Below, in pieces: positions 1 to 5,818 of a DNA stretch of 5,818 nt; the stretch's first letter is position 1, and each line of letters opens with the position of its first letter. This DNA is from Bacteroidota bacterium (lineage in GTDB: Bacteria; Bacteroidota; Ignavibacteria; Ignavibacteriales; Melioribacteraceae): assembly GCA_021812745.1 (NCBI GenBank), contig JAKAMS010000176.1:1-5818 (forward strand), given 5' to 3'. Below the pieces are notes generated by a model, which saw only the letters and a list, made by a program, of their open reading frames with translations, was not told where the DNA came from and searched no databases. Position numbers and translations under genes: made by a program.

Positions 1-1230
1 CTATTCTTACCGGGCGGACCGATTGATACCGGCTGGACATTTTACATTCCATACAGCGTAAGATCAACAACAAATGTTTCGATGGCACTCTTTGCGGCTT
101 TTGTACTCGGCTTCTCTTCAATTTTAACCGGCTTGAATTTTATTACGACAGTTCACAGAATGCGCGCACCGGGCATGGGTTTTTTCAAAATGCCTTTATT
201 TGTTTGGGCAACTTATGCAACAGCTTGGATTCAAATTCTTGCAACACCGGTTATTGCATTAACAATTTTGTTAGTAATTCTAGAACGGACATTCGGCGTA
301 GGAATTTTTGATCCTGCTCTTGGCGGCGATCCGATTTTATTCCAACACATGTTCTGGATTTATTCCCACCCGGCTGTTTATATAATGATTTTACCGGCAA
401 TGGGGGTTGTTTCGGAAATAATTCCAACATTTGCCAGAAGAACAATTTTTGGCTATAAGGCAATTGCAATGTCGTCATTAGCAATTGCGTTTGTCGGTTA
501 TCTTGTTTGGGCGCATCATATGTTTTCAAGCGGAATGAGCGACACAGCACGATGGATCTTTTCATTGCTTACATTCATTGTTGCTCTTCCAAGCGGAGTA
601 AAAATATTCAACTGGGTTGCAACAATGTACAAAGGTTCTATAGATCCGCAAACCCCATTCTTGTGGGTGATGAACTTTATCTTTTTATTCTCTATTGGAG
701 GATTGACCGGATTGGTACTCGGTTCACTTGCTACCGATATTCATCTTACTGATACATATTTTGTCGTTGCGCATTTTCATTATGTAATGTTTGGCGGAAC
801 CGGGACAATTTTCTTTGCAGCACTCCATTATTGGTTTCCTAAAATGTTCGGGAAAATGTATAACAAGAAGTTTGCAAATATTGCGGTTGTAACTTATTTC
901 ATTGGTTTTAATATGCTTTACTTTCCAAAGTTCATTATGGGATATATGGGAATGCCGAGAAGATATTACGATTATCTCCCGCAGTTTACGCCATATCAAA
1001 GAATTTCTACCTTTGGTTCATGGATTTTAGCCGGCACAATTTTCTTTATAATAGGTTATTTAATTCACGCCTTGAAATATGGGAAGAAGGCAACATCTAA
1101 TCCTTGGGGCGGTGTAACGTTAGAGTGGCATATTCCTTCGCCGCCGCCGCTTGAAAATTTTGAAACGATTCCTACAATCACTCATGAACCATACGATTTC
1201 AGTCAGTTGAAGGAGATGAAGGATGAGTAA
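1..1230 (+). CDS. ctaD: Cytochrome c oxidase subunit I, A2 type (5'-truncated by window edge)
   Basis: Catalytic subunit of a heme-copper oxygen reductase in the cytoplasmic membrane; it reduces O2 to water and pumps protons. The reading frame is open from base 1, so the first ATG at 82 is internal and roughly the first 120-130 residues are missing. Numbering codons from base 1, the CuB ligands are H123, H172 and H173, with Y127 as the His-Tyr cross-link partner (HPAVY). H258 is the heme a3 ligand and H260 the heme a ligand (HFHYVM). K201 in PSGVKIF is the K-channel lysine, with Ser198 where Thr is usual. R320-R321 (MPRRYYDY) are the arginines near the heme propionates. Helix VI reads YSHPAVY, so the D-channel glutamate of A1 enzymes is absent and the Tyr-Ser pair of A2 enzymes is present. 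A Thr (codon 250) replaces the usual His in HDTY. The C-terminal tail has the usual LEW and PSPPPLENF motifs. The 3' end overlaps ctaE by 8 bases. The identification is very sure. Confidence 0.97.
1210..1230 (+). promoter_or_regulatory. Shine-Dalgarno and ctaD/ctaE stop-start overlap
   Basis: AAGGAG at 1210-1215 lies inside the end of ctaD, seven bases before the ATG of ctaE at 1223. The ctaD stop codon (TAA, 1228-1230) falls after this ATG, giving an 8-base overlap (ATGAGTAA). This arrangement suggests translational coupling of subunits I and III, and it fixes the ctaE start. Confidence 0.8.
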
Positions 1231-1846
1231 TCATTCAGAAAGTGCAGTTCATCAAATTCATCGGGATGATGTTGGCGCAAAGATGGGAATGTGGCTTTTC
1301 CTTTTTACCGAAGTTCTTCTTTTCGGCGGAATGTTTTTAGTTTATGCAGTCTACCGTTACCAATATCCTTCTCAATTTCATATTGCAGCTATGGAATTAA
1401 ACACAGCAATGGGAACTTTCAATACTATAATTCTATTAACAAGCAGTTTAACAGTTGCGCTTTCAATTGCCGCTCTTCATAATGGAAAGAAAATTCTATC
1501 GCTAATTCTTCTTTCTGCTACGTTGTTATTTGCGTTGATATTCATGGTTGTAAAATATTTTGAATGGACAACGAAGATATCTCACGGAATTTATCCCGGA
1601 TCGCCTGAACTTTTAGCTAAACCTAACGGACAAATTCTTTTCTTCGGGTTGTACTATGTGATGACAGGTCTTCATGGTCTTCACGTTTTAATTGGGATGG
1701 TAGTAATCGCATTTATGATAGTCTTTATCGCAAAAGATAAAGTAACAGCAGATAATTATGTCAAACTGGAAAACTCCGGTTTGTATTGGCACCTTGTAGA
1801 TTTGATCTGGATCTTCTTATTCCCACTTTTCTATTTAATTCAGTAA
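1223..1846 (+). CDS. ctaE: Cytochrome c oxidase subunit III (short, five-helix form)
   Basis: Membrane subunit III of the oxidase, 207 residues. It binds no metal and in the family supports stable proton pumping and turnover of subunit I. Visible family motifs in order: [17 protein letters not shown] (residues 20-36, with the conserved membrane Glu at E30), LLTSS (71-75), KYFEW (111-115), [11 protein letters not shown] (148-158) and [18 protein letters not shown] (188-205). Hydrophobic segments lie at about 20-45, 64-86, 91-111, 137-170 and 186-206. This is the five-helix bacterial version without the first two helices of the mitochondrial protein. The start at 1223 is supported by AAGGAG at 1210-1215. 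The next gene begins 10 bases after the stop. No odd residues were seen. Confidence 0.96.
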
Positions 1847-1856
1847 GGAAATTTTA

Positions 1857-2141
1857 ATGAGCGGAGATAACAAACAACATATAGGTTACGGTACATACAT
1901 TTTAGTATGGCTGGCGCTTCTTGCCTTTACTTCGATTACAGTAACTGTAGCGGGCGTGAATCTTGGACGGTACACTTTATTCATTGCCTTATCAATAGCT
2001 GCTATAAAATCTGCGCTCGTTATTAATATATTTATGCACATAAGACTAGATGAGCCGATCTTTAAAGTGTTCTTAGCAATAAGCGGCGCTACGTTACTAA
2101 TTATCTTTCTACTAACGTTTTTCGATTATATCTATCGCTGA
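1857..2141 (+). CDS. ctaF: Cytochrome c oxidase subunit IV, prokaryotic small type
   Basis: Small membrane subunit, 94 residues, of the prokaryotic COX4 (CtaF/CoxD) family found with caa3-type oxidases; it probably stabilises the complex. Three hydrophobic helices are visible at about 13-34, 39-60 and 69-91. The family pattern is present: a YILVWLALLAFTSITVTVAG stretch in helix 1, then IAAIKSALVI with K51, then the FMHIRLDEP turn (F59, M60, H61) after helix 2. The start is chosen from AAGGAA at 1845-1850, six bases before the ATG and overlapping the ctaE stop codon. It sits between subunits III and II with gaps of 10 and 9 bases, so it clearly belongs to the same transcript. Such proteins diverge quickly, but motifs and context agree. 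Confidence 0.92.
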   Translation: MSGDNKQHIGYGTYILVWLALLAFTSITVTVAGVNLGRYTLFIALSIAAIKSALVINIFMHIRLDEPIFKVFLAISGATLLIIFLLTFFDYIYR

Positions 2142-2150
2142 GGAATATAA

Positions 2151-2786
2151 ATGGGAATATCTCCTACAACACATGCTGAGTCGGTTGATTTCGTGATGTT
2201 ATATATTGTAGCCATTTCTGTTGTTCTACTTGTCGGGATTACAGCAACGATGGTTTATTTTGTTTTCAAATACAATAGAAAGAAGGGGCACGCACCGGTA
2301 GACATTCATGGTAATCTTCTTCTTGAAATTATATGGATACTTATACCAACATTGCTGGTTCTTTCAATGTTCTATTTTGGCTATACAAGTTTTAGAGAAA
2401 CAAGAGAAATTCCGGATAATCCTTTTGTCGTAAAAGTTACTGCGCGTATGTGGCATTTTAGTTTTGAATATGCAAACGGTAAAAAGACAGATACACTTTA
2501 CGTTCCCATAAATACAGCAATAGATTTGGAAATGCAGTCAGTTGATGTCAATCATGCTTTTTACATTCCTGCTTTTAGAATTAAGGAAGATATTATTCAT
2601 GGCAAAACAAATCATTTGTATTTCACTCCAAAAGAGATTGGAGATTACGATGTTGCTTGTGCTGAGTATTGCGGTTTGAATCACTCGGCAATGTATACAA
2701 AAGTAAAAGTTATTAACGATGATCAATTTACAAAATGGTATGGCGGAAGTTGGCAGCCTGTTAAAGCTAAAATACCGAAAGAATAG
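2151..2786 (+). CDS. ctaC: Cytochrome c oxidase subunit II with CuA site, no fused cytochrome c
   Basis: Electron-entry subunit, 211 residues. Two membrane helices (about 13-40 and 57-80, the second with the conserved E59 in EIIWILIPT) anchor a periplasmic cupredoxin domain (about 92-195) that holds the dinuclear CuA centre. All CuA ligands are present: H135 (DVNHAF), C170, E172, C174, H178 and M181 in CAEYCGLNHSAM, with exact family spacing. W101 matches the tryptophan through which cytochrome c passes electrons to CuA, but the aromatic patch reads WHFSFEY, less aromatic than the common WYWSYEY. There is no lipobox and no obvious cleavable signal peptide; the N-terminus is short and probably periplasmic. 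The protein ends about 15 residues after the cupredoxin fold, so it lacks the cytochrome c domain of caa3 subunit II. GAGGAA at 2140-2145 supports the start. Its place after subunits III and IV is unusual. Confidence 0.97.
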   Translation: MGISPTTHAESVDFVMLYIVAISVVLLVGITATMVYFVFKYNRKKGHAPVDIHGNLLLEIIWILIPTLLVLSMFYFGYTSFRETREIPDNPFVVKVTARMWHFSFEYANGKKTDTLYVPINTAIDLEMQSVDVNHAFYIPAFRIKEDIIHGKTNHLYFTPKEIGDYDVACAEYCGLNHSAMYTKVKVINDDQFTKWYGGSWQPVKAKIPKE

Positions 2787-2797
2787 AGAGTGAGTTA

Positions 2798-3670
2798 TTG
2801 GAATTTTTGAAAAAACATATAGCAATAATTTTAGAACTTGGAAAGGTTAGAATTACTTTCTTTGTTGCTTTTTCAACATCAGTAGGGTATTTGTTTCATT
2901 CGGGAAAGTTTGAGCCGGCTCTGATTTTTTGCGTAATAGGAGTCTTTCTACTTTCGTGCGGTTCATCGGCAATCAATCATTATCAAGAAAGATTTTCTGA
3001 TGCTATGATGGAAAGAACAAAAGGGAGACCAATTCCTTCTGGAAGGATTTCTGGACGGTATGCGGTTATAGCATCAGTTTTATTAGTTGTTATTGGATTA
3101 GGAATAATTTATTTCTCTTCAAATGTAACGGCATTATTGCTCGGTGTTGTAGCGTTGATTTGGTATAACGTTATCTATACTCCTTTGAAAAAGAGATATG
3201 CATTAGCTGTTGTTCCGGGATCAGTTATCGGTGCTCTTCCGCCTATGATCGGATGGGTTGCATCCGGCGGTTATGTTTTTGATAAAGAGATTTTGGCATT
3301 AGCGTTTTTCTTTTTCATCTGGCAAATACCTCATTTCTGGCTGCTGTTAATGATACATAATAAAGACTACGAGAAAGCAGGATTCCCAACACTCACAAAA
3401 ATATTTAATGATATTCAATTAGGCAGAATTACATTTGTTTGGATCGCTGCTCTTGCAACAAGTTGTTTGCTAATTCCATTCTTATCTTTTTCTTCAAGCA
3501 TCTATTCAATGATCATGATGTTCATTCTTGGTGCTTGGCTGTTGTGGAAAACTAGACCGATTCTTTCAGAATATCTGGAACGGTTAATTTTTAGAAAAGC
3601 ATTCCTAAGAATAAACTTTTATGTACTTGCTGTAGTGGTTATAATTTCATTAGACAAAATTATTTTTTAA
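2798..3670 (+). CDS. ctaB: Protoheme IX farnesyltransferase (heme O synthase)
   Basis: Integral membrane UbiA-family prenyltransferase, 290 residues, the usual length. It transfers farnesyl to protoheme IX to give heme O, the precursor of heme A for the oxidase. About eight to nine hydrophobic helices are visible. The prenyl-diphosphate motif is N60-x3-E64-x3-D68 followed by MMERTKGRPIPSG (70-82); most CtaB proteins have Asp at position 64. Other family marks are YTPLKKR (127-133), GALPPMIGW (145-153), WQIPHFW (175-181) and KDYEKAGFP (189-197), the second acidic region. The start is TTG at 2798; no in-frame ATG lies between the upstream stop and the conserved N-terminal helix, and a GAGTGAG sequence at 2788-2794 can serve as ribosome binding site. 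No heme A synthase (ctaA) is seen in the window, so whether the oxidase uses heme A or O stays open. A related UbiA enzyme with another acceptor is unlikely in this context. Confidence 0.92.
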   Translation: MEFLKKHIAIILELGKVRITFFVAFSTSVGYLFHSGKFEPALIFCVIGVFLLSCGSSAINHYQERFSDAMMERTKGRPIPSGRISGRYAVIASVLLVVIGLGIIYFSSNVTALLLGVVALIWYNVIYTPLKKRYALAVVPGSVIGALPPMIGWVASGGYVFDKEILALAFFFFIWQIPHFWLLLMIHNKDYEKAGFPTLTKIFNDIQLGRITFVWIAALATSCLLIPFLSFSSSIYSMIMMFILGAWLLWKTRPILSEYLERLIFRKAFLRINFYVLAVVVIISLDKIIF

Positions 3671-3691
3671 AGATTTTTAATCGGTTACATT

Positions 3692-5041
3692 ATGGATTTA
3701 TTAGATAATTCGGTTTTGCCTCAATCGGCACATCACATGGTGTTGCTTAGATATCTGCTGTCGCTGACATTCATTCTTTTCTTTCTGTACGCGAGCGTTT
3801 TGTTCGGCTCGCTGCTTTACTCATTATATTTTAGGAGAAAAGGAGAAAAGTCGGGTGAAAAAAAATACAAACGTTTTTCTAAAGAACTGATTGACCAAGT
3901 TACCTTTAATAAGGTAATAGCAATTGCATTTGGAGTTGTTCCGCTTTTAAGTGCTGTATTTGGTTATGCTCAGCTTTTGCACAACAGCGGCTTAAATGTT
4001 CCAGAATTTTTACTGCTTGCTCTTCTGTTATTGATAATAGCTCTACTATTCGTCTACACATACAAATACACATTCCATCTAAAAGAAATTTTTCAGTTTG
4101 CTGAAGAGAAAAATGAAAAAAGCCAAAACGAAAAGGAATTGACTGAAGAAATATCATCTTATTACTCAAAGACTGGAAGACTGCATAAACAAAGCGGTCT
4201 TTATGCGCTCCTATTTTTGACTGTTACTGTTTATCTTTTCTTGAGTACAGTCCAACTTGCATCGGATACAAATAGATGGGAAAGCGGTAATAATCTATTA
4301 GGACTAATTTTCTCGTTTTCAGCTTTGATTGATTTTCTTCAATTCATAGCCGCTGCTTTTTCTGTTACATCGGCGTTAGTTTTATATCTTCTGTTCAAAA
4401 CTAATAACGGGAATGAACATGACGATATTTATAAATCTTTTGTGAAAAATTTTAGTTTGCGTTCCGGTTTGATTTCCACTTTAATATTATCTCTTATTAT
4501 TGTTCTGAATGTTGTGATAAGTCCGGTAAACTTTCTTTCATTTGATTACTTCGGAGTAGTGCTAGTATCGCTAATTCTTCTTTTGCTGACCGCTAGTATT
4601 TTTTACCAGATGATAAAGGATCCTTCAATTAATTATAGCACTTTTCTAATTGTTCTATTGGTGTTTGTATTTTTGTCTTTAGTTGTCAAAGATCAGTTAG
4701 CTTTTGATAACTCTACAAAGATGCAGACTGCAATTCTTGTTAAGGAATACGATTCATACGAAAAGAAAATTCAAGAAGAGATGGGAGTTAGTACGCCTAT
4801 AAGCGGCGCTGATATCTATAACGGAAGATGTATTGCCTGCCATAATTTCGATAAAAAAGTTGTTGGACCTCCGTATAATTCTACTTTACCCAAATATGAA
4901 GGCAAGAGAGATCTTCTTGTAAAATTTATACTTAATCCCGTTAAAGTAAATCCCGATTATCCACCTATGCCTAATCAAGGATTAAAACCGAAAGAAGCGG
5001 AAGCTATTGCAGATTACCTTTTAAAAACTTACAAGAAGTAG
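3692..5041 (+). CDS. Polytopic membrane protein with C-terminal cytochrome c domain
   Basis: A 449-residue protein; I do not recognise its membrane domain. About eight helices are visible at residues 18-47, 73-96, 104-127, 170-190, 203-235, 257-277, 284-306 and 315-333. The basic loop 48-72 (RRKGEKSGEKK...) and the charged loop 130-168 place those sides in the cytoplasm, which puts the C-terminus in the periplasm. A charged linker (334-369) leads to a class I cytochrome c domain (about 371-449) with heme motif C380-I-A-C383-H384, a GPP turn at 392-394 and the likely distal ligand M426 in PPMPNQG, ending in a typical AIADYLLKTY helix. It is the last gene of the oxidase operon, 21 bases after ctaB, so a role as membrane-held electron donor to CuA or as an extra oxidase subunit is inferred. 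H14, H15 and H97 could in principle bind another heme, but no known pattern supports this. No Shine-Dalgarno sequence precedes the ATG; the hydrophobic N-terminus supports this start. Confidence 0.88.
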   Translation: MDLLDNSVLPQSAHHMVLLRYLLSLTFILFFLYASVLFGSLLYSLYFRRKGEKSGEKKYKRFSKELIDQVTFNKVIAIAFGVVPLLSAVFGYAQLLHNSGLNVPEFLLLALLLLIIALLFVYTYKYTFHLKEIFQFAEEKNEKSQNEKELTEEISSYYSKTGRLHKQSGLYALLFLTVTVYLFLSTVQLASDTNRWESGNNLLGLIFSFSALIDFLQFIAAAFSVTSALVLYLLFKTNNGNEHDDIYKSFVKNFSLRSGLISTLILSLIIVLNVVISPVNFLSFDYFGVVLVSLILLLLTASIFYQMIKDPSINYSTFLIVLLVFVFLSLVVKDQLAFDNSTKMQTAILVKEYDSYEKKIQEEMGVSTPISGADIYNGRCIACHNFDKKVVGPPYNSTLPKYEGKRDLLVKFILNPVKVNPDYPPMPNQGLKPKEAEAIADYLLKTYKK

Positions 5042-5071
5042 AAGAAGTATTTCCTCTTTAGAAAGATAATT

Positions 5072-5096
5072 CCTCGGCAGTTGCAACTGAGGTTTT
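5072..5096 (+). terminator. Possible rho-independent terminator of the cox operon
   Basis: Thirty bases after the last stop codon, CCTC (5072-5075) and AGTTG pair with CAACTGAGG (5084-5092), with three extra bases (GGC) bulged on the left arm. A run of four T (5093-5096) follows directly. The stem is imperfect and the T run short, so this is a moderate candidate. Its place just after the operon is what makes it credible. Confidence 0.45.
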
Positions 5097-5125
5097 GATC
5101 TAACCTTATTCTGAGTACAAATAAA

Positions 5126-5139
5126 ACTTAGAACTAAGT
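5126..5139. repeat. Short inverted repeat ACTTAG-AA-CTAAGT
   Basis: Two perfect 6-base arms, 5126-5131 and 5134-5139, are separated by two bases. It lies about 160 bases before the GTG start of the receiver-domain gene. It could be a binding site for a dimeric regulator, but an arm this short in AT-rich DNA can arise by chance. Confidence 0.25.
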
Positions 5140-5295
5140 AGATTTATTCAATTCAGCCGGAAATACTCTAAACAAAATCAACTAAAGACCGATAATTAAT
5201 GAATGATTGTTGGAATATATTGTTTCGCTTAGTTGTTAAATTAATTTATTTTCACTTCGACAATAAGTTGATGTTTCTATTCTAAAGTAGGATTT

Positions 5296-5818
5296 GTGGA
5301 AAATAAAAAAACATTGCTTTTGGTGGAAGATGATGAACTTTTAGCGATGACTGAAACCCGTTGGCTAAATAAAGCGGGTTACCAGGTAATACATGTTGTT
5401 AACGGTGAAAAATCAATCGAGTTTGTCCGAGAAGGCAAATATCCAATCGATTTGATTCTAATGGATATAAATCTTGGCAGTGGTATAGACGGGACAGAAG
5501 CTGCTCAAGAAATACTTAGAGATCATGATATACCGTTATTATTTCTTTCTTCTCGCACTGACCATGAAATTGTTGAAAAAACAGAACGAATTCCATCTTA
5601 CGGCTACGTTGTAAAAAATCCCAATGATTCTGTACTACTTGCTTCAATTAAAATGGCCTTAAAGCTGCATGATGCCGGCAAAGAATTAAGAAAAAAAGAA
5701 AAAGCTTTGACAGAAAATCATGCACGATTAAGAATGTCTGAATTTGAATCCCAATCCAAATCTGAAAATTGGCGGCTCTCTGGGTTTGCAGAATTAAAAC
5801 AGGTTGAAGAGAGATTAC
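5296..5818 (+). CDS. Response-regulator receiver domain protein, probably start of a larger signalling protein (3'-truncated)
   Basis: The frame is open from GTG at 5296 to the right edge (174 codons plus one base). Residues 5-125 form a complete two-component receiver domain: acidic pair D12-D13 (LLLVEDDELL), phosphoacceptor D57 in LILMDINLG, S85 (FLSSR) as the switch Ser/Thr and K107 in GYVVKN. So phosphorylation should be possible. Residues 126-174 are charged and helical (ELRKKEKALTENHARL...), like the coiled-coil linkers that join a receiver to PAS, histidine kinase or other output domains; the output lies outside the window. The GYVVKNP...VLLASIKMAL ending is one I associate with receivers placed before PAS and HisKA_2-type kinase modules, which is an inference. 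An in-frame stop at 5269-5271 and no ATG before the conserved start of the domain make GTG the only good start; AGGA at 5289-5292 is only three bases away, which is short. It is separate from the cox operon and no link to it is shown. Confidence 0.9.
   Translation, partial: MENKKTLLLVEDDELLAMTETRWLNKAGYQVIHVVNGEKSIEFVREGKYPIDLILMDINLGSGIDGTEAAQEILRDHDIPLLFLSSRTDHEIVEKTERIPSYGYVVKNPNDSVLLASIKMALKLHDAGKELRKKEKALTENHARLRMSEFESQSKSENWRLSGFAELKQVEERL

Follow-up and report, generated by a model that had tools for sequence, protein, structure and literature searches.

The window, a stretch of 5,818 nucleotides (positions 1 to 5,818 of the forward strand of contig JAKAMS010000176.1, GenBank assembly GCA_021812745.1, a Melioribacteraceae bacterium), carries the end of a heme-copper oxidase operon that closes with a gene for a membrane protein joined to a cytochrome c, hereafter CYTM. 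We consider it probable that CYTM, with a membrane part of heme-less CydA (cytochrome bd subunit I) fold, is a structural subunit placed where alternative complex III (ACIII) meets an A-type oxidase, and that its tail cytochrome c relays electrons from ACIII to CuA. The fold, the topology, the lack of His at the mapped heme positions, the operon, the linkage to ACIII and an inverse pattern with subunit II fusion were computed; that ACIII reduces the heme c, that the electrons then go to CuA and that CYTM takes part in docking alongside COX3 and COX4 is what we infer from them. In Ignavibacteria and their kin, a protein resembling a worn-out bd subunit thus seems to have found a second use, carrying electrons from one respiratory complex to another. 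CYTM and the positions discussed below are as follows (TM, transmembrane helix; all on the + strand).

3692..5041, +, CYTM, CydA-fold membrane protein with C-terminal cytochrome c, 449 aa, ATG start
3692..4723, +, predicted membrane domain of CYTM, residues 1-344, eight helices, CydA fold, N-out
3734..3736, +, H15, outer side ahead of TM1 (His in 70/81 members)
3779..3781, +, F30, position of the CydA heme-ligand His (F in 53/81 members, L in 28/81)
3971..3973, +, Q94, outer end of TM2 (Gln in 80/81 members)
4277..4279, +, W196, outer loop between TM4 and TM5 (Trp in 73/81 members)
4340..4342, +, Q217, position of the CydA b558 His (His in 3/81 members)
4829..4843, +, CIACH heme c attachment motif, residues 380-384
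4967..4969, +, Met426, likely distal heme ligand (invariant in 30/30 relatives)

The first-pass annotation had described an eight-helix membrane protein with a periplasmic CIACH heme domain and a distal Met, and this description held in every part. The hydrophobicity profile has eight peaks and the AF2 model eight helices of membrane length (mean pLDDT 82.5; the membrane part scores high, the cytochrome c part 49-75). The tail passes the Pfam cut-offs of both Cytochrome_CBB3 (371-443) and Cytochrom_C (372-445), and C380, C383, H384 and M426 are invariant in the 30 aligned relatives. There are 10 K/R in the first inner loop (47-74), and K+R is higher in inner than in outer loops in 81/81 members, which places both termini outside and the heme in the periplasm. 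CYTM thereby shows the CXXCH motif, the Met and the periplasmic location of a class I cytochrome c.

The membrane part, which the first-pass annotation had left unassigned, is assigned to the CydA fold on the basis of the predicted structure and of bridge families: CYTM shares with CydA the predicted fold and the N-out topology over the first eight helices, and homology was traced through the bridges. Pfam and NCBIfam recognised the cytochrome c alone, the few matches to the membrane part all falling below cut-offs, and neither PF01654 nor an NCBIfam CydA model matched CYTM at E<=1. We took as composition matches Pfam Tetraspanin (residues 19-160, window 3692-4171, E 3e-5, below cut-off) and LPG_synthase_TM. 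A PDB sequence search with the membrane alignment gave a single match without meaning (E 0.2), and a PHROGs search gave none. CYTM has no Pfam match to NrfD, the type of the ACIII membrane subunits ActC and ActF, whereas ActC of locus L001 does match it. The direct CYTM-CydA profile alignment was insufficient alone and the global alignment meaningless.

Heme-ligand positions were mapped on the qOR-like CydA of relatives. The TM1 ligand His is replaced by F or L in 81/81 members and the TM5 b558 His by Q217 here, F30 and Q217 corresponding to H19 and H186 of E. coli CydA. The profile alignment ends ahead of the ligands Met393 and Glu445. No Q loop is present, the loop between TM6 and TM7 measuring 9 residues (277-285), and no CydB partner was found among the window genes of at least 60 aa that were scanned, both flanks lying outside the window. 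A conserved set of residues (P10, H15, Q94 and W196) lies on the outer face and may hold the cytochrome or a partner. Related genomes also encode unannotated CydA-like proteins of 385-418 aa (L178-L185, L188, L189); L181 and L184, scanned besides L178, had no meaningful Pfam or NCBIfam match. We also observed an adjacent gene pair (L135:7094-10025, - strand, and L136:5190-7670, + strand) encoding a CydA-like protein with the heme His kept and another large membrane protein that ends in a cytochrome c. No Pfam or NCBIfam model reaches its cut-off on the membrane part of either, and the pair is possibly an undescribed bd-like cytochrome c oxidase.

A protein search returned 416 CYTM homologues at E<=1e-3 (120 of them listed) and a GTDB genome scan found 118 places encoding CYTM (best 80 taken for locus analysis), so the reading frame does not owe its existence to chance. 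The scan patterns were drawn from the cytochrome part, which puts forms without cytochrome beyond its reach. By record name, the carriers are Ignavibacteriota (Melioribacteraceae and others) and Kryptoniota, with some labelled Bacteroidota, Chlorobiota or Desulfobulbaceae. We found no earlier description of CYTM in the open PMC literature, a scope outside which most subscription papers fall. As the first-pass annotation had it, CYTM belongs to the oxidase operon: of the 80 loci, 57 have upstream oxidase genes in the order COX1-COX3-COX4-COX2-CtaB and 12 in the same order without CtaB. Among the remaining loci, nine were ended by contig borders, L020 is without coxA and coxB, and no oxidase genes occur in L072.

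Upstream of the oxidase genes, ActC, ActDE, ActF and a gene for a 311-aa protein of cytochrome c type were present in all 55 loci with more than 4.5 kb ahead of the COX1 match, with SCO also in 54 of them (the exception being L020). The order in L001 is the end of ActB, ActC, ActDE, ActF, cytochrome c, SCO, COX1, COX3, COX4, COX2, CtaB and CYTM; Pfam confirmed NrfD (ActC), ActD with cytochrome c and SCO1, the protein in the ActF position having no Pfam match. The excerpts consulted from two studies of Melioribacter roseus describe an ACIII-oxidase cluster, Mros0045-0033, in the same order, with its last gene termed a soluble c551/c552 (PMC3534657), and place Mros0033 in the membrane proteome of aerobic cells only (PMC5492636). 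Judging by gene order and by P0146, a relative in the genus Melioribacter that is a full 446-aa membrane form, MROS_0033 very probably belongs to the CYTM family.

Subunit II was surveyed in 395 genomes, with 150 matches listed and weaker ones outside. Among the matches listed, a frame of at most 260 aa was found in 49/54 genomes with CYTM and in 0/96 without, where the shortest measured 302 aa; one of the 49 short frames (G172) has lost its C-terminus at a contig end. The co-occurrence of CYTM with an unfused subunit II, which the first-pass annotation had put up for checking, was thus usual. CXXCH was present in 20/20 long frames picked from the top of the list, one of which (L144) adjoins a CYTM gene that the CYTM search of these genomes had missed. 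For the genome counts, weak matches to frames of 563-576 aa (G037, G096, G111, G153, G374) were dropped as chance, two of them (L140, L141) being by eye what we take to be KdpA-like potassium pump subunits, and G075 was removed because its match was the bridge protein L135, leaving 57 of 63 genomes with CYTM; this CYTM search was incomplete (G372 was missed and recovered later), so a few labels of absence could be wrong.

A comparison of 117 loci, from which L168 was excluded because it duplicates the L142 region, gave CYTM with unfused subunit II in 78, with fused subunit II in 9 and with an undecided one in 10; loci without CYTM had a fused subunit II in 19 and an unfused one in 1 (L167), whose genome bears an orphan CYTM (L131). 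We thus read CYTM as making the subunit II cytochrome dispensable, with few events behind this and nine loci that retain both. A lineage without CYTM and with fused subunit II (L145-L149) is nested within CYTM-bearing rows; four of its loci have SCO and no ACIII match, L146 having Rieske and cytochrome b genes instead. Beside the fused-subunit-II oxidase, L145:7582-9126, L146:8253-9353 and L147:7537-9144 hold a CydA-like gene of 367-374 aa that is membrane part only, together with one for a small cytochrome c of 129-142 aa; in L146 the Rieske and cytochrome b genes come next. There was no clear support for deriving the CYTM cytochrome c from a relocated subunit II domain: the best matches of this cytochrome outside CYTM are small separate cytochromes (L131, L145-L147), with fused subunit II domains ranking later (from E 2.8e-4).

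In the route that we propose from gene order and known homologous complexes, the cytochromes c of ACIII, namely ActDE and the 311-aa protein, would hand quinol electrons to the cytochrome c of CYTM, which the CydA-fold part would anchor to the membrane, and this one would pass them on to CuA of the unfused short subunit II; CYTM would do the job of the cytochrome c domain of a caa3 subunit II and act with COX3 and COX4 in docking. The earlier idea of a stable oxidase subunit stands as far as membership in the oxidase operon is concerned, but CYTM appears to be a component of the ACIII-oxidase junction rather than a plain oxidase subunit, because its gene set goes with ACIII and its membrane part is kept beside ACIII, COX3 and COX4 in four loci, described below, that have neither COX1 nor COX2.

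Several observations weigh against this assignment. Comparing the CYTM and CydA profiles directly gives a weak signal (P 4%, E 0.01), and Foldseek gave two matches at E<=0.001, the top one a CydB chain. ACIII has terminal cytochromes of its own (ActDE and the 311-aa cytochrome c) and might do without a further carrier. In 9/117 loci CYTM stands together with a fused subunit II, which means that the swap is not strict, and the inverse pattern rests on few events, since the COX1 tree shows 3 CYTM changes and 8 fusion-state changes and an independent-pairs test was without power (median p 0.5). The CYTM of L020 and L169 keeps its cytochrome c though no CuA receives its electrons, and orphan copies (L130, L131, L072) lie distant from oxidases.

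The best surviving alternative, to which we give a substantial though minority share of belief, is that CYTM makes up, with COX3 and COX4, a docking unit that belongs to ACIII and can serve either an A2 or a cbb3 oxidase, the cytochrome c being optional and kept mainly with a CuA oxidase. It draws on four loci (L020, L139, L169, L170; those encountered, outside any systematic scan), where ActC-ActDE-ActF-cytochrome c-COX3-COX4-CYTM are contiguous and SCO, coxA, coxB and ctaB are missing in between. A PF00116 search matched none of the four genomes, and their large COX1-family frames measure 701-714 aa, CcoNO (cbb3) by length, that of L139 matching COX1 and FixO in Pfam; G400 and G232 also have frames of 735 and 747 aa with weaker scores, putative NO reductases, and G410 small partial matches. 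CXXCH is absent from the CYTM of L139 and L170 and kept in that of L169 and L020. Contact between ACIII and oxidase via subunit III, described for Flavobacterium johnsoniae in an excerpt of PMC8361435, fits COX3 remaining with ACIII. Against a docking unit of this kind, the assemblies are drafts and L139, L169 and L170 are long branches in the CYTM tree, so decay is possible, and a cbb3 oxidase is close in just 2/4 (adjacent in G232, ~12 kb away in G360). In that tree the four loci require four changes, also on starred branches. A bolder version, in which the COX3-COX4-CYTM triplet is a transferable coupling module docking ACIII to an A2 or cbb3 oxidase, with the link cytochrome kept or dropped depending on CuA, we hold to be possible but rather doubtful; if true, the module would be a cytochrome bd relative turned supercomplex adaptor.

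It is unlikely that CYTM is a tethered periplasmic carrier for several acceptors and not bound to the oxidase. The orphan genes invite this explanation, standing near nosZ/nosD (L131:7925-9202), nrfA and a NapC-type gene (L130:7774-9063) and narGH (L072:10001-11281), but they make up only 3/101 rows of the tree and L130 and L131 cluster together. We think it quite improbable that CYTM helps to assemble the oxidase or to supply it with heme or copper: it comes after ctaB in 57/80 loci with SCO in the same operon, but it is retained where coxA, coxB, ctaB and SCO are all absent, and the cytochrome c motif is found in 80/80 of the loci recovered by cytochrome-based patterns. Hardly any weight falls on a quinol or heme enzyme in its own right, the binding role once proposed for the membrane part, since the CydA fold and the well conserved outer H15, Q94 and W196 are outweighed by a His at the mapped ligand positions in only 0 and 3 of 81 members, a 9-residue TM6-TM7 loop in place of the Q loop and no CydB in the window.

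Ahead of CYTM the window holds the rest of the operon, in the order coxA (partial), coxC, coxD, coxB and ctaB.

1..1230, +, coxA, oxidase subunit I, 5' end beyond the window
1223..1846, +, coxC, oxidase subunit III
1857..2141, +, coxD, oxidase subunit IV (COX4_pro)
2151..2786, +, coxB, CuA subunit II without cytochrome c domain
2798..3670, +, ctaB, heme o synthase

COX2 models match coxB and it contains no CXXCH, in agreement with the first-pass annotation, so that the cytochrome c sits on a separate gene, not fused to the CuA subunit. Past the operon, positions 5296-5817 hold the start of a response-regulator protein, for which the corresponding frame in L001 is 1332 aa.

As a probable junction subunit, CYTM can be set beside several known systems. 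CydA (PF01654) has the Pfam match, heme-ligand His and Q loop that CYTM lacks, and CYTM has a cytochrome c in place of the ninth helix and sits in a heme-copper oxidase operon; this suggests that the cytochrome bd fold can shed its hemes and persist as a scaffold in another oxidase. The OR-C and OR-N cytochrome bd-like oxidases (CydAA') are likewise CydA relatives, thought to use cytochrome c and described as O2 reductases in an excerpt of PMC10839748, whereas CYTM has lost the mapped O2-reductase heme-ligand His. MROS_0033, described as a class I soluble cytochrome c551/c552, is last in the same ACIII-oxidase cluster as CYTM, which suggests that this 'soluble cytochrome' of Melioribacter is a membrane-integral component of the respiratory chain. 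The cytochrome c domain of a caa3 subunit II (Rhodothermus marinus type) is, like that of CYTM, a periplasmic class I cytochrome encoded with a CuA oxidase and ACIII, but that of CYTM rides on an eight-helix CydA-fold protein and is nearer in sequence to c551/c552. Text from PMC5928083 has the receiving cytochrome c of Rhodothermus carried by subunit II and says of the extra cytochrome c domain on ActA of F. johnsoniae that it replaces the subunit II domain. The ActA domain is thus, like CYTM, a relocated ACIII-oxidase link cytochrome, there on ActA and here on a separate membrane protein, and the CydA-fold protein is probably a third site for this link, after ActA in Flavobacterium and subunit II in Rhodothermus.
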